A DNA stretch of 64,000 nucleotides from Paraburkholderia caffeinilytica. GTDB taxonomy: Bacteria > Pseudomonadota > Gammaproteobacteria > Burkholderiales > Burkholderiaceae. A program made the translations under genes and the position numbers. The DNA is taken from NCBI RefSeq assembly GCF_003368325.1, contig NZ_CP031466.1:868001-932000 (forward strand), given 5' to 3'. This document shows positions 52,247-63,297 of this stretch, in pieces (position 1 is the first letter of the stretch; each line of letters begins with the position of its first letter). The notes under the pieces were generated by a model, which searched no databases, had not been told where the DNA came from, and saw only the letters and a list, made by a program, of their open reading frames with translations.

Positions 52247-52828
52247 ATGCGCATTGCCATCCTTCAGCGTGACCCCGTCATGCGTCAGTCGATCGAAAAG
52301 GTCCTTATGAGCGCCAGCCATACGTGTATGGTCTACGACGACGGTCTGACCATGTCGAAAGCGCTCGCCCGTTCCACCGTGGACATGCTGGTGCTGGACT
52401 GGCAAGGCACTCGCCTGTCCGGCTCCGAAGTCCTGAGGTCGGTGCGCGCGGTCGGCGGCGACCGCCTGCCGGTCCTGTTCGCTTCGGCCGAGACGTCCGA
52501 GGATAGCGTCGTGCGCGCCTTTGCCAGCGGAGCAGACGACTATGTCGGGCTGCCGCTGCGTCCGGGCGAGTTCCGCGAGCGTGTCGCGGCATTGCTGCGT
52601 CGTGCTTATCCGGATCGCTTCAGCGCCGCGAGTTTCGATGTCGGCCCGTACCATTTCGACATGTCCCGTCGCCCGCAAAGCCTTATCCAGCAAGGGTTGT
52701 TCAATAGTTGTTCAAAATTCGTTCAAAACTCCCAGTGCCGATTCGCCGTGCGCGGTAGGATAGCGCCACAAAACACAGAAACTCCCGGGGGAGCACGTGG
52801 GCGCACAACTGATCAAGATGCAACGTAG
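52247..52828 (+). pseudogene. Response regulator interrupted by element insertion
   Basis: Residues 1-125 form an OmpR-type receiver domain: MRIAILQRDPVMRQS, the phospho-acceptor Asp in MLVLDWQG, Ser/Thr in VLFASAET, and the switch Lys position in GADDYVGLPLRPGEF, where the usual Lys is replaced by Leu. After FDVGPYHFDMSRR (about base 52667) the sequence changes to RPQSLIQQGLFNSCSKF..., which is unlike the winged-helix output domain expected there. The frame then runs into the start of the next gene. I infer that the integrated element cut off the DNA-binding domain. A receiver-only product could still be made. Confidence 0.7.
52697..52729. repeat. Three GTTCAA sites with 11-base period
   Basis: GTTCAA occurs at 52699, 52710 and 52721, exactly one helical turn apart, inside longer TTGTTCAA-like units. 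It is right at the presumed left end of the element. Such phased sites suit integrase arm-type binding or a cooperative regulator of the next gene. Confidence 0.6.
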
Positions 52829-53603
52829 TAGGGATGCCAGAAGACGATTCGAGAATATCAACCAGAAGCGCGACGCCTATCTGATCGTCCACTACTCGTG
52901 TGAATCGTTCTATGACATTAAGGACGGGCGAACACCGCGCATCACTTCGATTGCCATCCGGAATTTCGCTTCGGGTCAAACGCACTCGTTTTCGATTCAC
53001 AAATGCGCCGAACAAAGCGGCGTAAGCGCGGCTGACATTCCGAACGACTACGATAAGTTAGAACGGATGATGCTGGATGAGTACTTTGTATTCGTGCGCT
53101 CTCAAGGTGGGTTCAACTTTATCCACTGGAACATGCGGGATAACAACTTCGGCTTCCAGGCTATAGAGCACAGGCTGAAGGTGCTGAAGGGCGACCCTTT
53201 TGTGATTGACGACGCCCGCAAGTTCGACATGGCTAAAGAGCTAATCGCGATCTATGGCCCCGGCTATGCGCCTCACGGGGAACACGGCCGCCTATTCAGC
53301 CTTATGGACCTGAACAAGATCACGGCGAAAGACGCCATGAACGGCAAAGAGGAAGCTCGCGCGTTCGATGACAATCAGTTCGTCGCCCTTCACCAATCGA
53401 CACTGCGCAAAGTGGACGTGATGTCCAACATTTTGGAACGCGTGCTGGATGGGTCGCTAAAAACCGCGGCCACTTGGTGGGAGGCGCGTGGTCTGCATCC
53501 TGTTGCGATCGTTGAGCTTGCGAAAGAGCATTGGCTTTGGACGTTTTTCGCATTGCTTTTTGGTGCGATAGGCATTGTGTCCTCAATCAAAGGGTTACTG
53601 TAG
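52797..53603 (+). CDS. Conserved protein of unknown function with C-terminal membrane anchor
   Basis: 268 residues from a GTG with GGGGGAG just ahead. The N-terminal domain has YLIVHYSCESFYD, TPRITSIAIRN, TFSF-like SGQTHSFSIHK, then FNFIHWNMRDNNFGFQAIEHR and LHQSTLRKVDVMSNILERVLDGSLKT. The C-terminus has one membrane helix (LWTFFALLFGAIGIVSSIKGLL). The three blocks faintly recall a DEDD-type exonuclease pattern, but the first acidic residue is not in place, so I do not claim activity. The gene is AT-richer than the chromosome, lies between the element's end and int, and fits an accessory (moron) gene. Confidence 0.7.
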   Translation: MGAQLIKMQRSRDARRRFENINQKRDAYLIVHYSCESFYDIKDGRTPRITSIAIRNFASGQTHSFSIHKCAEQSGVSAADIPNDYDKLERMMLDEYFVFVRSQGGFNFIHWNMRDNNFGFQAIEHRLKVLKGDPFVIDDARKFDMAKELIAIYGPGYAPHGEHGRLFSLMDLNKITAKDAMNGKEEARAFDDNQFVALHQSTLRKVDVMSNILERVLDGSLKTAATWWEARGLHPVAIVELAKEHWLWTFFALLFGAIGIVSSIKGLL

Positions 53604-53635
53604 CCATCTGTTTCGTGGTCTAACTGGAGGCGACA

Positions 53636-53875
53636 ATGACAAGTATCGACGAGCAGCGGGCAGAAGAGCGGGCTGCAATTGACAACGAACGGCGTGCGTT
53701 TGAGCGGCGCCAACGAGCATTCATCAAGGTCCATCAACAGTTCGCACCACAAGGCAACGGGGCACCCACAGATGTGGACCTAGAAGAACTTGACGCCGCA
53801 GATGCAGACCATCGAGCAGCTGTCGCGGAGATGGATCGTATCTCCGAAGAAATACGCACCGGTAAGCGCCGATAG
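53636..53875 (+). CDS. Small coiled-coil protein
   Basis: 79 residues, very charged, with helix-forming runs (EQRAEERAAIDNERRAFERRQRAF and DADHRAAVAEMDRISEEI, split over the two halves). CTGGAGG lies ahead of the ATG, 32 bases after the membrane-anchored gene, so the two are probably co-transcribed. Function unknown. Confidence 0.6.
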   Translation: MTSIDEQRAEERAAIDNERRAFERRQRAFIKVHQQFAPQGNGAPTDVDLEELDAADADHRAAVAEMDRISEEIRTGKRR

Positions 53876-53965
53876 CCCCGCTAGAGGGTAGGTGGCTTGG
53901 TGATCGCGCGCTCAGGGGCAAACTCGGCCAACGGGCGTAATCGATAACCAAGAAGGAGATTAGAT

Positions 53966-54364
53966 ATGAATGTAAGCAAGATATTATTGTTGGTTATGTT
54001 GGCAACAGCTTCCGACATAGCGCAGGCAGAGGTCAAACTCATGTTGTTCGGGGGCACGAGCCATGATGTTTATTTGGGCTGTCTGAACTGCTCAGATGTG
54101 GCACCGGATTCAGTCCACAATGATATCGGCCAATACGGTTCAGACATTTCGCCGCAGAGCATCTTCAATGACATAGGCCAATACGGGTCAGACATTTCTT
54201 CTGAAAGCCCTTGCAATGACATAGCATCTGATCCGCCGGTGATCGTCGACCAAAATGGAGGATTCTACGGGTATCTGACGCTCAATGATACGCATCCCAA
54301 AGCAGTTACCGATCAGAACATCCTGGCTTGGTTAAAATATAAAGTCTGCAAGGTGCACCGCTGA
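53966..54364 (+). CDS. Secreted repeat protein of unknown function
   Basis: 132 residues with a signal peptide (MNVSKILLLVMLATASDIAQA). The mature part opens VKLMLFGGTSHDVYLGCLNCSD, then tandem copies of a 19-20 residue unit (SVHNDIGQYGSDISPQ, SIFNDIGQYGSDISSE, SPCNDIASDPPVIVDQNG), and ends NDTHPKAVTDQNILAWLKYKVCK. Similar YGS repeats occur in small exported proteins of many bacteria, with unknown role. Four Cys may form disulfides. AAGGAG precedes the ATG. It is AT-rich, consistent with transfer. Confidence 0.72.
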   Translation: MNVSKILLLVMLATASDIAQAEVKLMLFGGTSHDVYLGCLNCSDVAPDSVHNDIGQYGSDISPQSIFNDIGQYGSDISSESPCNDIASDPPVIVDQNGGFYGYLTLNDTHPKAVTDQNILAWLKYKVCKVHR

Positions 54365-54475: not shown

Positions 54476-55561
54476 TCACCTTGTGCTGATTCTCACCTTC
54501 AGAGGTTCAAGGCCACGCGAATTTGCATACAGGTCAGCAATCACGTCTGTCATATGCCCGAGTAGCGCTTTGGTGTCGACGCCGCCCTGTTCCATGTAAA
54601 GTCGTTTCGTCAGACTGCGCATTTCGTGGAAGGTCGGCGCGTCGTCGCCCGTGATGCCGGCAAGGTCGCGTGCTTCCTTGAACTTCGACGTGAAGGTCTT
54701 TATCTTGATCGCCGCTCCTTTGGGCGCGTTTACGTTTGGCCTGATGTGGTGGATCAGGTATTTGCTGACGATCCCTGTGGACCTGCAGCGCGCGATTACG
54801 TCGGAGAGCGACATCCCGAGCACGTCCATGCGCAGTTCAACCGGGATCGCGATGCGCACGCCTGTTTTGCCGCGCGTTAGCACTGCATGGCCGTCCTGTT
54901 GGAAGCTGCGCTCCCAGCGTGCTACCGTGGAACGGTCCTGCCCGGAAACGAGCGCCAGCAGCATCGCATTTTGCAGCCACAGCGCTACCTGCGGCGCCTT
55001 CTCGTAGATCGCCTGGAATTCCTCGAACGTCAGTCGTCGGCGCTTCACCGTAACCTTTGCCTTGTCGGTCGCGTCGGCGGGGTTCCTGTCCATCCAGCCA
55101 AGTGCCATGCCCCGGCGACACACGGCGCGCATGCGACTGCGGATGTGAACAGCCCATTGCATTTTGCCGCGAGCTTCGACCTTCTCCAGCATGTCGGCGA
55201 CGTGTTTCGTCGTCAGGGCTGCGCACGGGACTTTCCCGATCTCGTCGCGAATCGCGGAATCCACATACTTCCTGTGGCGCACCGTCTCGGGCTTCGCCTT
55301 GCCAACGGGCATCTTGTCCAATAGATCGCCGATAGTCTCTCGCGGCGTGTCCAGCCGCTCACTCAGGCTTCTTGTCACCTTGCCGGCTACTGCCTTGGCG
55401 TTCGCCTCCTGCGCTTCAAAGATCGCGAGTGCGAGATCGATGCGCCCGAGGACATACGTCTTCCCGTCACGCGGGTCGCGCCAGGTGTAGTAGCCGGGGC
55501 GTGGTTCGTGCATGTTGGCCGGCCAGTTGGCGCGGCGCCGGATGCGTGGTCGTGCTGCCAT
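54476..55561 (-). CDS. int: Tyrosine integrase of the element
   Basis: 361 residues from the ATG at 55561. The N-terminus (MAARPRIRRRANWPANMHEPRPGYYTWRDPRDGKTYVLG, split here only for position 1-40) is the lambda-type arm-binding domain, residues about 65-150 the core-binding domain, and 170-361 the catalytic domain. The catalytic Arg is in VSGQDRSTVARW, the HxxR box in TFHEMRSL, the second His in ALLGHMTD, and the nucleophile Tyr in ADLYANSRG. It recombines attP with attB and acts near the left end. It lies two bases after xis at the tail of the leftward operon. Confidence 0.9.
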   Translation of the reverse strand: MAARPRIRRRANWPANMHEPRPGYYTWRDPRDGKTYVLGRIDLALAIFEAQEANAKAVAGKVTRSLSERLDTPRETIGDLLDKMPVGKAKPETVRHRKYVDSAIRDEIGKVPCAALTTKHVADMLEKVEARGKMQWAVHIRSRMRAVCRRGMALGWMDRNPADATDKAKVTVKRRRLTFEEFQAIYEKAPQVALWLQNAMLLALVSGQDRSTVARWERSFQQDGHAVLTRGKTGVRIAIPVELRMDVLGMSLSDVIARCRSTGIVSKYLIHHIRPNVNAPKGAAIKIKTFTSKFKEARDLAGITGDDAPTFHEMRSLTKRLYMEQGGVDTKALLGHMTDVIADLYANSRGLEPLKVRISTR

Positions 55562-55563
55562 AG

Positions 55564-55761
55564 TTATTGAGGAATTCGTTGCGCAAGGCGTGGGCGAACC
55601 GTGCCGTCCTGAAAGACGGCGTTCTGTTCGACGTAGTAAGAGCGGCCGACCTTCACCGGCGTGGGAAAGATTTTCCCTGCGTTGATCCAAAGGCGCGCGG
55701 TGCGGATCGCCGGCGGCGGATCGAACTCGCGTTTCAACCACTCATCCAACCTGACTTTCAT
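55564..55761 (-). CDS. xis: Excisionase
   Basis: 65 residues. MKVRLDEWLKREFDPPPAI then TARLWINAGKIFPTPVKVGRSYYV is the lambda Xis-type winged-helix pattern, with the wing around KVGRSYYV. It bends attachment-site DNA and steers the integrase toward excision. It ends two bases before int, so the pair is translationally coupled. Bases 55762-55845 separate it from the PRTRC cassette and hold nothing recognisable. Confidence 0.85.
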   Translation of the reverse strand: MKVRLDEWLKREFDPPPAIRTARLWINAGKIFPTPVKVGRSYYVEQNAVFQDGTVRPRLAQRIPQ

Positions 55762-55845: not shown

Positions 55846-56607
55846 TCAAGCGGCATTTGTCACCTCGGCGTGCCCAGGCAAGCTATCCACGGCCAGCGGC
55901 CGAACGTGCCCGGTTTTCAGGTTGACGAACGCGCCGCACCAGCTGAGCCGACCGTGTCGGAAAAACTCCCACAGGATCCCGAGCGCCGGCGTCACGATCG
56001 CCTGGTTGATGAAAAGCTCCTGCCGCTCGAGCGCTTCGGCGAGGCCGCAACTGGGCGCATCGTCTTCCGGAACCGTTGTGTCGATCAGCTCGGGCAGCAC
56101 GTCGTATGGCCAGCGCAGTGGCGTGCTGCCTTCGCGCGCCGCGGTTGGCCTCGATCCGAAGATGACCTGCCCGTCGCTGGCGCGATTGCCTAGATCCATC
56201 ACATACGCCGCGGTCTTCCCGATTGTTGTTGCAAGCTTTGCTCGAGCAGCTGCGCTGTCGACGCACAGAATCGCGATGCCCGCGCCCAGATGCACGAGTT
56301 CGCTGGTACTCGCATGGATCGGGCGAGCATGCCAGTCGAGACCAAAGAACGCGTTGAGTCGGTGAACCAGCACGATGCTCTTGTGCATGCCGATGTCGGC
56401 TGGACTGAACATCTGACGGCCGATGTTCGCTTCGCTGACCGTATCGCCGTCGAACGCGGTGACGTGCAAGCCCGGATGCCCGAGGGCGGTCAGCGCATGA
56501 TTGAGTCGCGCGAGGCCTGTCAGCATTTGCGAGCCATTGCCACCGCAGCCGATCAGCGCGATGTTCACGCGCCGATCGAGAAAATGCGCGGGCGTGATGT
56601 GCGTCAT
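55846..56607 (-). CDS. PRTRC system ThiF family protein (E1-like)
   Basis: 253 residues, ThiF/MoeB/E1 Rossmann fold. The nucleotide loop is IALIGCGGNGSQML (G20-S26), followed by AFDGDTVSEANIGRQMF with Asp53, Asp55, Arg64 and Gln65, and DIGMHKS with Lys76, then CVDSAAAR with Asp117. All adenylation residues are present. DAPSCGLAEAL carries Cys187, a candidate thioester Cys. It should adenylate the C-terminus of a ubiquitin-like partner, probably protein C. The start overlaps the stop of protein A (ATGA). It is last of the cassette, ahead of xis-int. Confidence 0.88.
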   Translation of the reverse strand: MTHITPAHFLDRRVNIALIGCGGNGSQMLTGLARLNHALTALGHPGLHVTAFDGDTVSEANIGRQMFSPADIGMHKSIVLVHRLNAFFGLDWHARPIHASTSELVHLGAGIAILCVDSAAARAKLATTIGKTAAYVMDLGNRASDGQVIFGSRPTAAREGSTPLRWPYDVLPELIDTTVPEDDAPSCGLAEALERQELFINQAIVTPALGILWEFFRHGRLSWCGAFVNLKTGHVRPLAVDSLPGHAEVTNAA

Positions 56608-57395
56608 GCCGGCTCCGGAACCTTGAATACGGCGGACACCGGCACTTTCAGCGGAATGACCATGCCGAGCACGCAGAGACGGAACGCGACGCTCGGCGTT
56701 CCGCCATCCCCGAGGCCGCCAAGCACCGCCGAGATCTTCACTTCGCCGGCATCGTCTTTATCGTCCTTTGGGCTGAAGTACGCGGGCGCGGCGCCATGGC
56801 TATGGAGGTCGATCGCGAGCGATTCGTGCGGCTCCAGCACCGGTCGGTCGAACTTGATCTCGTCGGGCGACGTGGACGAAACATGAAGCGGCTTATAGGT
56901 GAGTGCCTGCTTTTCCTTATCCCACACCATCCACGCGGCATGCTCGTTCGGCAGGGCGCTTTGTGCTTCCTCCGCGAACGCCTGCACGAACGGCAGCGCG
57001 ACGCCGAGCCGACCAAACGCGAGTTCGATCTTCGGCGTGACCACGCCATATGGCGGGCGCGGGCCAGTCTCGCTGTGCTTCGCCAATTGCTGGATCACAT
57101 GGAGCCACGGCCGGCGCACCTCGACGAACACGCCCTCGGCGGTCATCAGGAAGCGGTGGCCGACGTCGAGCAGCGGAGCGAACTGTGCGTGCTTCGGCAC
57201 GGCGACCGTCGGGGCGCTATCGAACAGCGCGACGTCGAGCGGGAACGCCTCGTCGTCTTCTGCCGCGGCGATCGCACGCGGTTTGGCGCGCGCGATCTCG
57301 TCGGCGACGCCTTGCGAAAACCGGTCGAGTGCAGTTGCGATGTCGCGCAGGCCTGCCTGCGTTGCGTCTTGAAACAGGGTGAGTAGTTTTTCCAT
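56604..57395 (-). CDS. PRTRC system protein A (JAMM/JAB-motif protein)
   Basis: 263 residues. The C-terminal half carries a full JAMM metal motif: His198-x-His200, seven residues, Ser208, two residues, Asp211 (DLHSHGAAPAYFSPKDD), with Glu151 (LPNEHAAWMVW) as the likely catalytic acid on the preceding strand. JAMM proteins are zinc isopeptidases or proteases that process ubiquitin-like proteins. The N-terminal 130 residues are helical and family-specific. The gene overlaps ThiF by four bases and follows protein B by four. Assignment to PRTRC A rests on order and motif memory. Confidence 0.82.
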   Translation of the reverse strand: MEKLLTLFQDATQAGLRDIATALDRFSQGVADEIARAKPRAIAAAEDDEAFPLDVALFDSAPTVAVPKHAQFAPLLDVGHRFLMTAEGVFVEVRRPWLHVIQQLAKHSETGPRPPYGVVTPKIELAFGRLGVALPFVQAFAEEAQSALPNEHAAWMVWDKEKQALTYKPLHVSSTSPDEIKFDRPVLEPHESLAIDLHSHGAAPAYFSPKDDKDDAGEVKISAVLGGLGDGGTPSVAFRLCVLGMVIPLKVPVSAVFKVPEPA

Positions 57396-57399
57396 GGCG

Positions 57400-58113
57400 T
57401 CAGTCCAGAGTGGTGATGTTGTCGATCACGTCCGCGAGCGTTCGCTTCGTGTCGATCAGGCGGTCAAGGGGAAATTCGGCGCCGTCGAGCAGGTCGAGCC
57501 AAAGACGCTCAGCGCCGCCGCGTCTGTGGATAAGTCGTTCGTTATTGGGGTGGGTAAAGCGGCTGCGGAAAAATGCATCCTCGAACGGCTTGATGCTGGC
57601 CGTATTGACGGCGTCTGGAGTCGTGACATTGCCGACGCAGATCTCGCCGTTTTCCCAGACGTTGTAATAGGGCGCGGTGTACAGCTTCGTCGTCGGGCCC
57701 GGCCGCTCGTTGTCGCGCAGCGCGAAAATCGACCAGCTGTCACGGTTGACAATGAACACCAGCGGCGGATGTCTGGCGTCGCCGGCACGCTCGCCGATCT
57801 TGTCGGTCGACTTGAACCACACGCGGCGCGTGCAGGCGGGAATCCACCACGCCAGCATGTTCGGGGCGAAATAGACGACACGCTCGTGCACGAAACCGCG
57901 ATAGCTGGTTTTGCGGGCGGCGATCTCGGCTATCTCAGCCAACTGGTCAAGTGTGATCGGCACGCCGGGTAGCAACGTCGGAAGGCCGTTGACGACCCGG
58001 GCTGAGTGCTGCGTCGCGTAGACATACTGGGTGCCTTCCGAGCGGTAGAACAGCAGCGCGCTGTCGAGCTGCAGCTCCACGTCGTTGTCCTGGGCGATCA
58101 CGACGGACTTCAT
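57400..58113 (-). CDS. PRTRC system protein B (E2-like)
   Basis: 237 residues. The segment LYTAPYYNVWENGEICVGNV (about 145-162) matches the active-site neighbourhood of E2 conjugating enzymes (pattern N-x3-NG-x-ICLG), with Cys159 as the candidate catalytic residue. Upstream strands PPLVFIVNRDSWSIFALRD fit the E2 sheet. It may accept the activated ubiquitin-like protein from ThiF. Its start overlaps protein F by four bases. The family name is well known for this cassette; the E2 role is inferred from pattern. Confidence 0.8.
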   Translation of the reverse strand: MKSVVIAQDNDVELQLDSALLFYRSEGTQYVYATQHSARVVNGLPTLLPGVPITLDQLAEIAEIAARKTSYRGFVHERVVYFAPNMLAWWIPACTRRVWFKSTDKIGERAGDARHPPLVFIVNRDSWSIFALRDNERPGPTTKLYTAPYYNVWENGEICVGNVTTPDAVNTASIKPFEDAFFRSRFTHPNNERLIHRRGGAERLWLDLLDGAEFPLDRLIDTKRTLADVIDNITTLD

Positions 58114-59156
58114 GCGAACACCCGCACAAGTGTTTTTGCCTGGTATTCTTCGCGGCCAAGTATGCCGAGAAGGTGCTCGACAGCCTTGGCCAGAAGCGCA
58201 GTTGCTTCCATCTGCTTAAGCCATGTCGCGATGTCGCCGCCGACGATGGCAAGCGGTGTCGCGGATGCTGCGCTGAGAAACTCGCCGTCGGCTATGTATT
58301 GCAGGAAATCATCGACCACGCGGCCGACAACGTCGTCTTCGGTCCACCGCACGACGAGGGCAAGGTCAATGGCATCGAGACCGGCACCGCCGGTTCCGAC
58401 ATCCGCGAACGGCCCGTAGAAACGCGCAATGTTCCAGACGGTGTCCATCGCCGCGACCACCTCGGCAGCGAATTCATCGCGACCTGCGGCGCGTTTGACC
58501 TGGGCACGCGAAAGAACACGCTTCGGCGATGCCGCCCACTCTGGCATGCCGCGGAAGAACTTGTCTCGCGTGAAGAAATCGAACGTCTCAATCAGTTCTT
58601 CGCGGGACTGACAGTCGTGCAGGCTCATCGCTTCCTCTATCGCGACAGACTCGTCGGACTCGCCGTACCAGTAGGTGTATTGGGCGATGCCGAGGGCGTA
58701 AGCGGGCGTGCAGATGGTCGGCAGCATGCTGCATGCGTCATAGAGCGCGGCAAGTAACGTCTGGCCCAGCCCTTCGCGCAACTGTTCCAGCACAGTGATC
58801 GCACCGCCAACGCAAACTTGAGGGCACGAGATTGGGCCATTCGTGGTCTGCACCATTGCCCACAACTGATCAGTCCGTTTGAGCGAGTCGGGGAAATACC
58901 CATCGAGCGCCTGTTCGAGCTGGAGATTCCAGTCGAACAGGTGCATACCGTGGGTAATGCGATTCCAGCGGCGGGTGAGCGCGGTCGTCGCGAGTGCGAG
59001 TTCCGAGCGGGGCCGGCGCGCGACATCTTCGGCCTCGATCACGCCGGACTCGAGAAGCGACCTGGCGAGCGGGTATGTAAGCGACTCGCCCGAACTGATC
59101 GTGTACACGCCCGGAATATCGGTGAGGGAAGGCAGGGCAATCGGCGAGAAACTCAT
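58110..59156 (-). CDS. PRTRC system protein F
   Basis: 348 residues, mainly helical, no signal peptide or membrane segment. Typical stretches are THGMHLFDWNLQLEQALDGYF, ALGIAQYTYWYGESDES and DALDLALVVRWTEDD-like VVRWTEDDVVGRVVDDFLQY. No enzymatic motif is evident. In PRTRC cassettes F accompanies B, C and ThiF and may be a target-recognition or scaffold subunit (inference). It overlaps protein C by four bases and protein B by four, so the set is strictly co-translated. Confidence 0.75.
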   Translation of the reverse strand: MSFSPIALPSLTDIPGVYTISSGESLTYPLARSLLESGVIEAEDVARRPRSELALATTALTRRWNRITHGMHLFDWNLQLEQALDGYFPDSLKRTDQLWAMVQTTNGPISCPQVCVGGAITVLEQLREGLGQTLLAALYDACSMLPTICTPAYALGIAQYTYWYGESDESVAIEEAMSLHDCQSREELIETFDFFTRDKFFRGMPEWAASPKRVLSRAQVKRAAGRDEFAAEVVAAMDTVWNIARFYGPFADVGTGGAGLDAIDLALVVRWTEDDVVGRVVDDFLQYIADGEFLSAASATPLAIVGGDIATWLKQMEATALLAKAVEHLLGILGREEYQAKTLVRVFA

Positions 59157-59542
59157 GGCAGCACCGGCATACTGGAAACGGGCAGTTGCAGACGCACGCC
59201 GGCGACGCGCCGCGACGCGAGGGCATGCAGGCGGCGTGCGAGCTGGTCCTCAGCGGCCCGCGCCTCGATCCGGTGCTCACCGGATGGTGTCAGCGGGCCG
59301 CGCTCGAGCTCGGCGCGCAACTGCTCGAGCGTCATGGCGCCGCCCTTTGTGCCGACAGCGCGGCGGAACGTGTAGATGTTCTTGTTGCCGACGACTTCCG
59401 GCCCCTCGATCTCGGCGTTGACGATCTCCGGATAGGTATTGCCATAGAAGTCGCGCACCTGATGAAGCGAGAAGGTCGGCGACGGATCCGTGAGCTTGGC
59501 GCCGTTGTAGCGGAATTCGCGAGCGAGCGTTTCGGTTTTCAT
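59153..59542 (-). CDS. PRTRC system protein C (ubiquitin-like), with long C-terminal tail
   Basis: 129 residues from the ATG at 59542. The first 66 residues are the PRTRC C domain: FRYNGAKLTDPSPTFSLHQV, DFYGNTYPEIVNAEIEGPEV and YTFRRAVGTKG, a small beta-grasp-type protein. A Gly-Gly pair at 67-68 follows directly. Family members I recall are about 65-75 residues, but here about 60 more residues follow (AMTLEQLRAELERGPLTPSG...). It is the likely ubiquitin-like modifier of the cassette, and the tail may need removal. Seen: the GG and tail. Inferred: the modifier role. Confidence 0.8.
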   Translation of the reverse strand: MKTETLAREFRYNGAKLTDPSPTFSLHQVRDFYGNTYPEIVNAEIEGPEVVGNKNIYTFRRAVGTKGGAMTLEQLRAELERGPLTPSGEHRIEARAAEDQLARRLHALASRRVAGVRLQLPVSSMPVLP

Positions 59543-59552
59543 CGGTCGCTCC

Positions 59553-60083
59553 TTAAAGCAGGTCGACGCCGTCATCCCCGGCGGCGGACTGCGCGTTGCT
59601 GGAATCCTGCTCCGCAGTTACTGCAGGTATTTCGGAAGTGGCGGTCTCGGCGGCTGGTTCGATGCCGGGAATTTGCGTTTGGCGTGGGTCGGTCGGGGGC
59701 GTATCGCCAGCACCGTCACCGTTGTCGTTCTCTGTCGGCGCCGGCTGTTCTGCGGCACGCTTGCGGCCACCTTTGCCTCTCGACGTCGGCGCGGACTGTC
59801 CTTTCGTTCCTGCATCGACAGTACCGTTCGCGGTGCTCGCGGCGCGCGCCTGGTCGAGCACCGACAGTGTGCTGGGCTCGTAGATCGAAACCGCTTCAGC
59901 GAAATCGCGATCGAGTTCGTCAGGCGTCGCGAGGATGGACAGCGGGTAGAGCGGTTTTTCGCCCTTCGTGTCGTCATTGGCGCGTGGTGTGACGTTCACG
60001 CGCAACTGGTCACCTTCGGCGGTGATAAGTAGCGTGAGGGTCGTGCGTTTCGCGAGTGGGTACAGCGATGCAAACAGGGACAT
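59553..60083 (-). CDS. PRTRC system protein E
   Basis: 176 residues. The N-terminal 85 residues form a compact domain (SLFASLYPLAKRTTLTLLIT, PLYPLSILATPDELDRDFAEAVSIYE), followed by a long disordered Ala/Pro/Thr/Asp-rich tail (about 90-176) ending DGVDLL. No catalytic motif. It is first of the visible PRTRC genes, ten bases before protein C. The usual ParB-like partner and protein D are not in this window. They may lie past the right edge. Confidence 0.78.
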   Translation of the reverse strand: MSLFASLYPLAKRTTLTLLITAEGDQLRVNVTPRANDDTKGEKPLYPLSILATPDELDRDFAEAVSIYEPSTLSVLDQARAASTANGTVDAGTKGQSAPTSRGKGGRKRAAEQPAPTENDNGDGAGDTPPTDPRQTQIPGIEPAAETATSEIPAVTAEQDSSNAQSAAGDDGVDLL

Positions 60084-60107: not shown

Positions 60108-60341
60108 TTAGTGCTGCTTTGCGCGCCACTCGGCGAACGGGCGGCGCAAGAGGTTGTGAAAGCGCTCTGCCGCAGCTTTGTCGGTGGCCAGCGCCCGGCG
60201 GCTGTCGATCTGACAGACGGTGCGGATAACTTCCGCGGCTTCGTCGGCGGTCAGTTGCTCGACCTGTGCCTCGGACGACAGCCACTCGCGAAATTTGGGA
60301 TCGCGCGGCAGCATGCCGGCGAGTTGCGATATGTTTGCCAT
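60108..60341 (-). CDS. Small hypothetical phage protein
   Basis: 77 residues, helical and charged (PRDPKFREWLSSEAQ, LTADEAAEVIRTVCQIDSRRAL, FHNLLRRPFAEWRAKQ). The pattern with a conserved R-x-L and W near the C-terminus resembles small proteins common in phage early regions of Burkholderia. It lies 24 bases ahead of the PRTRC genes in the same direction, so it is in the same transcript. Function unknown. Confidence 0.6.
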   Translation of the reverse strand: MANISQLAGMLPRDPKFREWLSSEAQVEQLTADEAAEVIRTVCQIDSRRALATDKAAAERFHNLLRRPFAEWRAKQH

Positions 60342-60350
60342 GGTTGCTTG

Positions 60351-60569
60351 TCAGGCCGCGAGGCCGTCGTAATTGCGGTCGGCGAAGTCTGTGTCGCCTG
60401 GGAAACGGCCACTGCCGTCGCTGCGATACCCGCGGAAAATAGAGCCTTGGCGATGCGGAAGCCAGTAGCCTTCGCAGTCGCACCGCGGTAACCGGGCGAA
60501 ATGGTCGGGGTGTTTGCGCAGGCAGCGGCGAGTCGCGCACTGGCGGCAGCGAACGTGGTATCGAGTCAT
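60351..60569 (-). CDS. Small Cys-rich protein, zinc-ribbon-like
   Basis: 72 residues with RYHVRCRQCATRRCLRKHPDHFARLPRCDCEGY: two Cys-x2-Cys-type pairs (CRQC and CDC) plus His, which could bind zinc. The rest is polar. Part of the leftward early operon, two bases after the next gene upstream. Function unknown. Confidence 0.6.
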   Translation of the reverse strand: MTRYHVRCRQCATRRCLRKHPDHFARLPRCDCEGYWLPHRQGSIFRGYRSDGSGRFPGDTDFADRNYDGLAA

Positions 60570-60571
60570 AG

Positions 60572-60778
60572 TCAGTCGTCGAAATCGCCGCTGGCGCGAC
60601 GCTTCACGTCGCCTCGTTCACGAAGGCGCCGCTGTTCGCGGAGTTCGCGTGCGCGCGCTGACGATTCGAGCGTCTGGCGAACCTCGGGTTTCTGAATCGC
60701 TGAGTCGAAGTTGCCGACCATATGCAGCAGTTGCCACTCGACACGTAGTAGATGGCGCGGCAGCGGACTCCTGTCCAT
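60572..60778 (-). CDS. Small hypothetical protein
   Basis: 68 residues. RHLLRVEWQLLHMVGNFDSAIQ is a likely helix, followed by a very charged tail (SARARELREQRRLRERGDVKRR). Packed between its neighbours in the leftward operon. No recognised family. Confidence 0.5.
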   Translation of the reverse strand: MDRSPLPRHLLRVEWQLLHMVGNFDSAIQKPEVRQTLESSARARELREQRRLRERGDVKRRASGDFDD

Positions 60779-60936: not shown

Positions 60937-60939
60937 GGT

Positions 60940-61101
60940 TTAGCCCTGCACGCGAACGACATCAGTCACGGCAACACAGCCGGTGACGTGCATGGCTTGT
61001 TGAGCGGCGCTGACTGCGTCAGCGGCTTGGACCTGGATGTACGAACGGAGCGCACTCGGTTCTTCGCCCTTCATCAGGTAATAGCAGCGGTAACTTTTCA
61101 T
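60940..61101 (-). CDS. Small hypothetical protein, first gene of the leftward operon
   Basis: 53 residues from the ATG at 61101 (MKSYRCYYLMKGEEPSALRS). A strand-helix pattern with QVQAADAVSAAQQAMHVTGCVAVTDVVRV, resembling small phage proteins that take part in early control. It is the first gene after the leftward promoter at 61129-61158. An upstream in-frame reading to 61140 passes through that promoter and was not used. Confidence 0.6.
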   Translation of the reverse strand: MKSYRCYYLMKGEEPSALRSYIQVQAADAVSAAQQAMHVTGCVAVTDVVRVQG

Positions 61102-61128
61102 CACGCATCTCCATGGGAAACGTGACGA

Positions 61129-61158
61129 AGGATAGAACACTAAACCTCAGTCGGTCAA
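61129..61158 (-). promoter_or_regulatory. Leftward early promoter with repressor sites
   Basis: On the minus strand TTGACC (61158-61153), an 18-base spacer and TATCCT (61134-61129). The spacer holds GGTTTAGTG, the same half-site as in the rightward promoter, and another TAAACT lies at 61165. It drives the small genes, the PRTRC cassette, xis and int unless internal promoters exist. Confidence 0.65.
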
Positions 61159-61187
61159 GAAAACTAAACTGTTTGGTGCGCTGGACG

Positions 61188-61212
61188 AAAAAAAACCCGC
61201 GAGATGCGGGTT
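61188..61212 (-). terminator. Intrinsic terminator of the repressor gene
   Basis: Minus strand: AACCCGC, a five-base loop, GCGGGTT, then a run of T (complement of the A-run at 61188-61193). It lies 20 bases after the repressor stop and shields the leftward promoter from readthrough. Confidence 0.85.
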
Positions 61213-61231
61213 CTGGATATGTACGGGACCT

Positions 61232-61900
61232 TTACGAAGGTCGCCAGGATGACTTTTTCACAATCGCCCCGACGTAATGCATCTTGCTGATGCTCTCTTT
61301 CGGAAGGGCGATCGTTGCATGTGCTTCGTTTGTCGAAAGCAGGTGTATGCGACCTGCCCGTGAATAGGCCAATTCCTTGATCATCACCCGGCCATCGGTT
61401 GCTTTCACAAGAACCTCATCGCCAGGTTCGACAACCCTGTTCGGCTCGATGATTACGTATTCGCCGTCTTTAATGCGCGGCCGCATCGAGTCCCCGGTGC
61501 ACTTCAGCGCGTATGCATCTGGGTCTGACGACGGGAAGTCAACAAAACCGTCGCCTTGTCCGACTGGATATTCGATGTCGGCCCAGTATCCGTTGTCTCC
61601 TAGCTGCGCCATGCCTAGGACCGGGATGGCGCGACTAGGGGCAACCGGTAACGGATTCCATTCAATTTCATTGTGCTCTATCCCCGGAGTTCTCTTGTTT
61701 CCTTTGCCCATGACGATCCACACCGGGTTGTAGCCGAGCGCGTTTTGGATGCCGACAGCGTACTCGAGCTTGATGGACTTGATTTGACCGGATAGCCACT
61801 GGCTTACGGTGCCCTTTGAGACACCTGCGTGATGGCCGAGCGTGACGCTGTCTACGCCGGTTTCGTCGAGGATGGTTTGGATGCGTTCACTGAGCGTCAT
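61232..61900 (-). CDS. CI-like phage repressor, XRE HTH plus S24 peptidase
   Basis: 222 residues. HTH at about 5-60 (TLGHHAGVSKGTVSQWLSGQIKS), then a linker and an S24/LexA-type domain. The catalytic Ser is in GDSMRPRI (near residue 137) and the Lys is probably in VMIKELAYS (near 174). Such repressors hold lysogeny and self-cleave on RecA activation. The usual Ala-Gly cleavage pair is not obvious in AIPVLGMAQLGDNG, where a related site must lie. It is divergent from the Cro-like gene over a 73-base operator region. Confidence 0.9.
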   Translation of the reverse strand: MTLSERIQTILDETGVDSVTLGHHAGVSKGTVSQWLSGQIKSIKLEYAVGIQNALGYNPVWIVMGKGNKRTPGIEHNEIEWNPLPVAPSRAIPVLGMAQLGDNGYWADIEYPVGQGDGFVDFPSSDPDAYALKCTGDSMRPRIKDGEYVIIEPNRVVEPGDEVLVKATDGRVMIKELAYSRAGRIHLLSTNEAHATIALPKESISKMHYVGAIVKKSSWRPS

Positions 61901-61973
61901 GGTTTAAGAATCTAAACCAAATGTGGTTTAGAAAGCTTGTCACGGTTTAGTTTAGCGTTCTATACTGCGGTCC
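61901..61973 (+). promoter_or_regulatory. Repressor operators and rightward early promoter
   Basis: A palindrome TCTAAACCA-AATG-TGGTTTAGA spans 61911-61932, with further GGTTTA half-sites at 61901 and 61944. On the plus strand TTGTCA (61937-61942), an 18-base spacer holding GGTTTAGTTTAG, and TATACT (61961-61966) form a near-consensus promoter for the Cro-like gene. The repressor's own promoter must overlap on the other strand. Confidence 0.75.
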
Positions 61974-62757: not shown

Positions 62758-63297
62758 ATGAAAAACAGTTATTCACAAGGGGTTAGCGTGACCTGCAGAT
62801 ACAGCGATACAACATGGATCGATGTCCTCTATACGTCAGTACTCAAAACGCCGGGCAAGGTTGAGGATGCCGCGCGCTTTCTCACCGACCGTCGCGGCAT
62901 CCGCATTACTGGCGAATCGCTTCGTCTGAAATTGCGCGAAGTGGAGGGCGCCCGGATCTCGGGTGAAATGTTCGAGCTGCTCGTCGAATGGATGCTCGAG
63001 AAAAACCAGCCGCACGCGCTTGATGCCGTGCACGCGTTCAATGCCCGCTTCGGACTGGTGGCCGCGCTGAATGAGCGGCCTGATGCGGAGGAGGGTATCA
63101 CCGCGCTCGTTACCGCTGCGCTCGGCGTGAGCGACAAGACCGGCCGCCTCGCGGAGGAGGTTCGGCGTGCAGCGTTCGATGGCGTAATCGATCCACACGA
63201 AGTTGCGGCGATCGAACGGATCGGGCGCGATGGCCAGCGCCAGATCGAGCAGACGATCACGACTGCACGCGCTGCCGCCGGCATCAATCGACAGTAA
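62758..63297 (+). CDS. CII/CP76-like phage regulatory protein
   Basis: 179 residues. The N-terminal block (TWIDVLYTSVLKTPGKVEDA, FLTDRRGIRITGESLRLKLREVEG, ISGEMFELLVEWMLEKNQPHALDAVHAF) resembles the phage regulatory protein CII (CP76) family, with an HTH around residues 35-75. The C-terminal third is helical. Located between the cro-like gene and dnaB, it probably acts in early gene control. The ATG at 62758 lies in an AAACAGC context with no strong ribosome site; the ATG at 62815 is an alternative within the frame. Confidence 0.65.
   Translation: MKNSYSQGVSVTCRYSDTTWIDVLYTSVLKTPGKVEDAARFLTDRRGIRITGESLRLKLREVEGARISGEMFELLVEWMLEKNQPHALDAVHAFNARFGLVAALNERPDAEEGITALVTAALGVSDKTGRLAEEVRRAAFDGVIDPHEVAAIERIGRDGQRQIEQTITTARAAAGINRQ

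Follow-up and report, generated by a model that had tools for sequence, protein, structure and literature searches.

What does a six-gene cassette that resembles a ubiquitin-like conjugation system do inside an integrated phage element? The question is raised by the window analysed here, a 64-kb stretch of Paraburkholderia caffeinilytica DNA (positions 868001-932000 of contig C1, in an 8.3-Mb genome). The cassette is of the PRTRC kind, a name that stands for ParB-related, ThiF-related cassette, and occupies the minus strand from 60083 to 55846 in the order E, C, F, B, A, ThiF, with all genes co-directional and free of internal stops. We give a probability of roughly 0.6 to the reading that this ParB-less cassette, a type 6d operon, constitutes a pathway for activation and conjugation of a ubiquitin-like protein (Ubl), which a temperate phage carries in its leftward operon. 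Operon type 6d was described, and a Ubl conjugation pathway predicted for it, by Iyer, Burroughs and Aravind in 2006 (PMC1779556). The chemical idea of the preliminary description of this DNA, which had taken the chemistry and purpose to be uncharacterised, was therefore already in print.

The six genes and their predicted roles

The preliminary description had placed six co-directional PRTRC genes here and had proposed a search with the TIGRFAM PRTRC models as a check. All six genes exceeded the cut-offs of the corresponding NCBIfam models, PRTRC_E, C, F, B, A and ThiF (Table 1). That the genes mostly overlap by ATGA also held, for three of the five junctions (C/F, F/B and A/ThiF); E/C and B/A are short gaps. 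Pfam cut-offs were passed by C (Prok_Ub), B (Prok-E2_D), A (DUF2016 and Prok-JAB) and ThiF (ThiF), and the Pfam scores of E and F lay slightly under theirs. No match to any of the six was found in PHROGs at E<=0.001. PRTRC_E has a conserved N-terminal part and a low-complexity C-terminal half, and PRTRC_F, judged by its family, is alpha-helical. The dN/dS ratio (nonsynonymous over synonymous substitution rates) of all six genes was 0.06-0.20 against the loci L029 and L031, and 0.11-0.39 against three more distant relatives, values that place them under purifying selection as far as sequence comparison goes.

The residues expected of such enzymes are present. In ThiF, the Rossmann glycines and the Arg/Lys set that had been pointed out earlier (G20, G22, G23, G25, R64 and K76), together with C187, are invariant in 86/86 and 76/76 aligned rows. 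The E2-like Cys of B, C159, is found in 158 of 158 rows (85/85 and 73/73), and H188, which we read as the downstream His of Iyer type 6d, in 85/85 and 69/73. The JAMM motif of A is complete and conserved, as had been claimed, and in the N-terminal domain of A, a DUF2016 domain, R81 is kept in 85/85 and 51/52 rows and W97 in 85/85 and 53/53. For C, Gly67 is present in 84/84 phage-clade rows and 70/71 other rows (154/155). By these alignments the E1, E2, JAMM and Gly residues are kept through the phage clade. C had been described as beta-grasp-like and as ending near a Gly-Gly pair. The first part stood, by the Prok_Ub match and by the ubiquitin matches of the structure model given below; the second did not, as the conserved residue is the single, internal Gly67, the first of the pair, followed by 62 residues, and the second Gly is not conserved.

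Had the predicted folds of B and C borne no relation to E2 and the beta-grasp, the pathway reading would have been refuted; the models did not show this. The rows returned by VIA-align were mainly E2s for the model of B and mainly ubiquitins for that of C, with modest Z, and the AlphaFold model of C aligns to ubiquitin up to model residue 67, which falls on ubiquitin residue 76. C has a single Prok_Ub match, the remainder being modelled as helices with lower confidence. Foldseek gave no match at E<=0.001 for either model; its top-ranked rows for B were non-E2 proteins, E2s leading only in the second look with VIA-align. Sequence searches of the PDB, whether with B itself or with profiles built from B and from C, returned nothing useful. 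By their models, then, C resembles a beta-grasp Ubl of the ubiquitin fold and B an E2 fold, with modest scores. Separately from its E2-like part, residues 13-75 of B (window 57889-58077) matched COMM and PC4-type domains weakly in the structure comparison.

Homology and context support the predicted roles of C as Ubl, B as E2-like protein, A as JAMM protein and ThiF as E1-like enzyme. We infer the processing, the thioester relay, the conjugation, the CI control discussed below and the targets. A would cut C after Gly67 and free the Ubl; ThiF would adenylate Gly67 and take the Ubl on Cys187, from where it would pass to Cys159 of B; and B would move it to target lysines, perhaps with F or E as adaptor. 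A may also remove the Ubl from its targets. Similar parts could instead serve sulfur-carrier chemistry of the ThiS/MoaD type, in which a thiocarboxylate on Gly67 would modify a small molecule or RNA. The ThiF-ThiS pair likewise combines E1-like adenylation with a terminal Gly, and models for ThiF adenylyltransferases give weak scores under their cut-offs. However, such chemistry has no place for an E2-like protein, and the one here keeps its Cys in all rows (85/85 and 73/73); we consider this reading very improbable.

The end of C, the JAMM gene and gene X

Where C ends goes with the presence of the JAMM gene. Among systems with C, B, ThiF and a closed C frame, C extends past the Gly in 122 of 134 when the JAMM gene is present and in 0 of 21 when it is absent; eight further plasmids gave 2/3 and 0/5, respectively. 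Pooled, the extension is found in 124/137 systems with A versus 0/26 without, and all 26 A-less systems end exactly at the Gly. Here "no JAMM" means no match over 20 bits to our own A profile, and systems without a C or B match were dropped before the count, which kept 155 of the 162 rows with ThiF. The terminal Gly of L107, aligned one residue off, was corrected by hand, C of L194 and L195, missed by our own profile, was taken from the record annotation, and L109 has several unidentified genes between B and ThiF.

Because the rows are related, the raw association (Fisher p 8e-21) was set aside and not used. On a thinned tree, with 98 of 100 rows kept and most phage rows thinned on purpose, there were five changes of JAMM state, three of them forced by starred branches, and the contrasts agreed with the pattern, none opposing it. 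The tree-aware test of the association was not significant, there being too few contrasts, and this has to be held against a role of A in maturation. The pattern suggests that A matures the Ubl, with few independent events behind it: if A exposes the Gly, a C gene without A must end there. A comparable step is given in the accessible part of a review, where the JAMM enzyme BilC processes BilA and opens a C-terminal Gly (PMC11354881). The pattern yields a direct prediction, namely that A cuts after a defined Gly.

What follows the Gly is variable. Tails of at least 30 residues (n=103) formed 11 groups, of which three hold one sequence each. By hhalign, family 3 is related to family 4 (probability 89.8, E 1.8e-6 in that single comparison), and the relation of family 1 to family 4 is weak (31.9). 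Families 1, 3 and 4 are in addition encoded separately, by a free open reading frame (ORF) between C and F, printed copies of which end in VLP, PLP or PMP; family 4, that of the window, was fused in 8 cases and had a free copy in 36 loci. We call this small gene X. Over 140 loci with C and F it was fused in 42, free in 57 and absent or unrecognised in 41, never fused and free together, and the JAMM gene was present in all 42 fusions. The window and L029, whose ThiF proteins are 94% identical, yet carry unrelated sequences after the same GTKG. We conclude from these comparisons that the residues beyond Gly67 in the window are gene X, separate in many relatives; its product would be a small partner protein encoded beside C.

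X in the window could also arise by initiation at codon 70, an ATG preceded at 7 nt by AAAGGG, which lies within the codons of TKG. Taken further, X would come from this internal start and A would be a deconjugase only, with no maturation of C by A. Four of the five printed fused tails of family 4 do begin with GAM, ASM or AAM, in line with such a start. On the other hand, none of the loci searched had a free copy of family 0 or 2, and the extra residues there thus seem joined to C, and the lack of a tail in JAMM-less systems also disagrees with it. We regard this explanation as rather unlikely and keep to maturation of C by A.

The carrier prophage, its relatives and the control region

The carrier of the cassette is a prophage of about 46 kb, belonging to a temperate phage. 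Its ends came from the empty site in relatives L203, L204 and L205, where what corresponds to ~52660 and ~98890 (window numbering continued past the right end) is adjacent; a search for attachment sites by direct repeats had found no ends. A 10-bp core, CATTTCGACA, is present at both ends of the element and in L204, L205 having no exact copy. The empty-site junction and the core at two ends thus give an insert of ~46.2 kb, in what we read as a response-regulator gene. Downstream of ThiF sit xis and then the integrase, whose start we re-chose. With the Pfam and PHROG matches of Table 1, this upholds the earlier view of a cassette within an integrated element, in a leftward phage operon that closes with xis-int. 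The DnaB gene spans the right end of the window; to the right the chromosome also encodes a GpA terminase and, by our reading of ORFs, portal, baseplate and tail proteins. L203 has another integrase-bearing stretch soon after the empty-site junction; its positions 953-1447, beside the same attachment site, are 72% identical to the window's integrase, so the site may serve another element.

Searching IMG/VR with the ThiF of the window gave 73 loci, 69 with E-C-F-B-A-ThiF complete and in order; 60 of these 69 contigs have a CI-like gene upstream, on the same strand. As the IMG/VR contigs were retrieved by their ThiF, using exact peptide patterns that miss distant copies, they tell the place of the cassette when present, not its frequency among such phages. 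All six genes also occur in an isolated phage, BgVeeders33 (OK665841), where they are listed as a dinucleotide-utilizing enzyme and otherwise as hypothetical proteins. Within 50,697 phage records, B was matched only in BgVeeders33, ThiF in 8 and the Ubl in 2; the main texts of papers mentioning BgVeeders33, in the portions available, contain no PRTRC, ThiF or ubiquitin. ThiF exceeded the PRTRC cut-off in 25 of 146 genomes (relatives and the window's own, phage and plasmid copies counted together), and the bacterial genome contigs used are the best 80 of 548 confirmed. In a quick tree, 85 ThiF rows (viral contigs, BgVeeders33, the window and the closest bacterial contigs), a group chosen from the search results, lie on one side of a branch with 99% support in the Shimodaira-Hasegawa-like approximate likelihood ratio test. 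IMG/VR row L098 is outside this group. The cassette of this viral contig lacks the JAMM gene, its ThiF clusters with that of a Lentisphaerae contig, and it is perhaps a second, independent viral occurrence.

Terminases were searched in 49 of the 73 IMG/VR contigs and BgVeeders33. GpA was found in 13 of these 50 records (one barely over the cut-off) and a relative of the BgVeeders33 terminase in 31, a count that includes BgVeeders33 itself and many distant relatives; both were present in 1 and neither in 7. The cassette therefore goes with different packaging modules, as in the window, with GpA, and in L029, without it, despite their closely similar ThiF proteins. Compared by sequence, the cassette recurs in phages in the same order across many contigs, with different tails after the same Gly.

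Plasmid copies bring up another possible role. In 16 plasmid records, hand-picked from a spread list of 40 out of 330 matching, the genes broadly follow ParB-E-C-F-B-(A)-ThiF, some records having insertions, and ParB is present in 14. The cassette might therefore have kept a maintenance function from plasmids, aiding partition, replication or establishment, with ParB as one client among others, and six phage contigs that have a different ParB-like gene right after ThiF would agree with this. Against it, no full-length ParB was found near the cassette in phage-clade loci, and in the window's genome nothing passed the PRTRC_parB (TIGR03734) cut-off of 278.6 bits, the best score being 139.9. We judge a maintenance role quite unlikely. 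The ParB-like gene of the six contigs (L048, L050, L051, L052, L066 and L067) is a single-domain gene just downstream of ThiF, at ~10.9-11.4 kb; these IMG/VR matches were rejected as a retained PRTRC ParB, being unlike the long plasmid protein.

When the pathway would act depends on its control. Around the CI-like repressor gene lie a terminator-like hairpin, two promoter-like sites and a CII-like gene (Table 1), and the word GGTTTAG, whose five copies in 64 kb all fall within 60937-61950, occurs in the spacers of both promoter-like sites. The four small ORFs that separate the repressor from E, also leftward, have relatives in phage-clade loci only. The terminator, promoters, operator-like repeats and CII-like gene suggest an arrangement as in lambda, in which CI controls PL and PR and the cassette is expressed early. 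Transcription would start from a CI-repressed leftward promoter, so that the pathway would act mainly on induction or in early infection. Several counts go the other way. Terminator- and promoter-like sites in the region were not above chance, a longer shared word, allowing two mismatches at most, was not significant, and across 57 phages shared words were modestly enriched, with terminators after CI in 10/57 versus 4/57 on the control strand. Given these site counts and the weak enrichment across phages, CI control is a step that we infer.

Temperate phages of one lineage could hold a complete, self-maturing Ubl pathway as a recurring element of their early, CI-controlled region and use it offensively, tagging host or phage proteins upon induction or infection, with the JAMM protein maturing fused precursors whose tails are swapped like cassettes. 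We put this forward tentatively, as somewhat short of an even chance. Prophages often carry defence genes, and the pathway might rather be a prophage-borne anti-phage defence that tags the proteins of a superinfecting phage, as reported for Bil-type systems. Operons with Ubl, E1, E2 and JAMM parts, such as Bil and type II CBASS (cyclic-oligonucleotide-based anti-phage signalling system), act against phage according to the accessible parts of several papers (PMC13373217, PMC11354881, PMC10097602). PADLOC, however, gave weak E1-E2 matches to ThiF alone (best 26 bits) and none for the other five genes, and the operon appears to be CI-repressed and closes with xis-int, unlike what we would expect of a gene for the lysogenic state. 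Defence is in our view unlikely.

Other genes of the element were noted. Three plus-strand ORFs (52797-54364) separate the left attachment core from the integrase; the first had no Pfam or PADLOC match and the third no PADLOC match. Near the right end of the prophage, L006:3151-6891 (93151-96891 in window numbering, outside the window) encodes a 1246-amino acid (aa) protein with a NACHT domain (Pfam) and, by our reading, a restriction-like start, near a DUF4145 protein. No PADLOC model matched either protein; the NACHT protein is possibly an unrecognised defence gene.

Table 1. Features of the window and of the element's right end (continued window numbering)
Feature	Position	Strand	Basis or remark
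Left copy of 10-bp core CATTTCGACA	52652..52661		Empty-site junction in relatives; left end of element
Phage integrase	54476-55561	-	Pfam Phage_int_M and lambda Arm DNA-binding domain; PHROG integrases; start ATG 55561
Excisionase (xis)	55564-55761	-	phrog_629, 58.5 bits
PRTRC_ThiF, E1-like adenylating enzyme (predicted)	55846..56607	-	TIGR03736, 304.2 bits vs 144.75
PRTRC_A, DUF2016 and Prok-JAB (JAMM)	56604..57395	-	E151, H198, H200, S208, D211 conserved
PRTRC_B, E2-like; Cys159 in NGEICVGN, downstream His188	57400..58113	-	
PRTRC_F, 348 aa	58110..59156	-	TIGR03742, 111.4 bits vs 58.4; Pfam alpha-hel2 21.1 bits, cut-off 25
PRTRC_C, whole gene	59542-59153	-	62 residues beyond Gly67
PRTRC_C residues 1-67, ubiquitin-like domain, ending VGTKG (Gly67)	59342..59542	-	Prok_Ub 90.3 bits; TIGR03738 105.7 bits
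Small gene X, in-frame fusion to C from codon 70	59153..59335	-	Tail family 4
PRTRC_E, 176 aa	59553..60083	-	TIGR03741, 66.2 bits vs 37.95, residues 3-89; Pfam PRTRC_E slightly under cut-off
Four small ORFs between repressor and E	60940-61140, 60572-60778, 60351-60569, 60108-60341	-	Relatives in 12, 41, 46 and 16 loci
Promoter-like site (PL-like) ahead of leftward operon	61129..61158	-	GGTTTAG in spacer
Terminator-like hairpin right after repressor gene	61192..61214	-	9-bp stem, then T run
CI-like repressor	61232..61900	-	Helix-turn-helix and Peptidase S24
Promoter-like site (PR-like)	61937..61966	+	GGTTTAG in spacer
CII-like transcriptional activator	62758..63297	+	phrog_101, 67.1 bits
Right copy of 10-bp core CATTTCGACA	98897 (outside window)		Empty-site junction

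Relation to known systems

In the accessible parts of earlier papers, PRTRC is reported on plasmids (PMC7466150) and in an integrative and conjugative element (PMC3826726). A text match to PRTRC in PMC4838322 was false, being the plasmid name pRtrCIAT899c. Phage-borne PRTRC, C-terminal tails, X and the rule linking the JAMM gene to the Gly end were not found in the open-access literature searched. By these searches the prophage carrier, the single internal Gly67, the JAMM/Gly-end rule, X and the control-region signals appear to be new, the idea of a Ubl pathway itself being known. Bacterial Ubl pathways are mostly discussed as host defence, and an early pathway run by a phage would, if true, reverse that. 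The unexplained PRTRC family would also gain small, inducible and genetically simple carriers, one of which, BgVeeders33, is already isolated, and with the predicted cut by A the role of type 6d operons, a question open since 2006, becomes testable stepwise.

As in the PRTRC family (NCBIfam TIGR03735-03738, 03741 and 03742, with TIGR03734 for ParB), the six core genes of the window exceed the cut-offs and stand in the plasmid order; it differs in having no PRTRC_parB over the cut-off, in lying in a prophage and in the fusion of C to X. The likeness to type 6d is close: a Ubl with a conserved terminal Gly, an alpha-helical protein, an E2-like protein with a downstream His, an E1-like protein, and a JAB protein whose N-terminal alpha+beta domain has a conserved Arg and Trp, here R81 and W97 of A (PMC1779556). 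The conserved Gly is carboxyl-terminal there, whereas it is internal in the C of the window; the parts of that paper available to us name bacteria as carriers and are silent on phages as carriers, on gene E, on X, on tails at the C terminus and on an ending that depends on the JAB gene. The Bil system (BilABCD), by its description in part of a review, likewise has a Ubl, an E1, an E2 and a JAMM protein that acts on the Ubl to open a C-terminal Gly (PMC11354881); BilA has two Ubl domains against one in C, and of the two systems defence is reported in that source for Bil only. Bub operons, from a partial view of their description, are alike as bacterial ubiquitination-like operons for which protection against phage is not yet shown (PMC13373217). 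Many of them are tied to CapW, CapH+CapP or CapK+CapS, whereas here a CI-type repressor of phage adjoins the operon.

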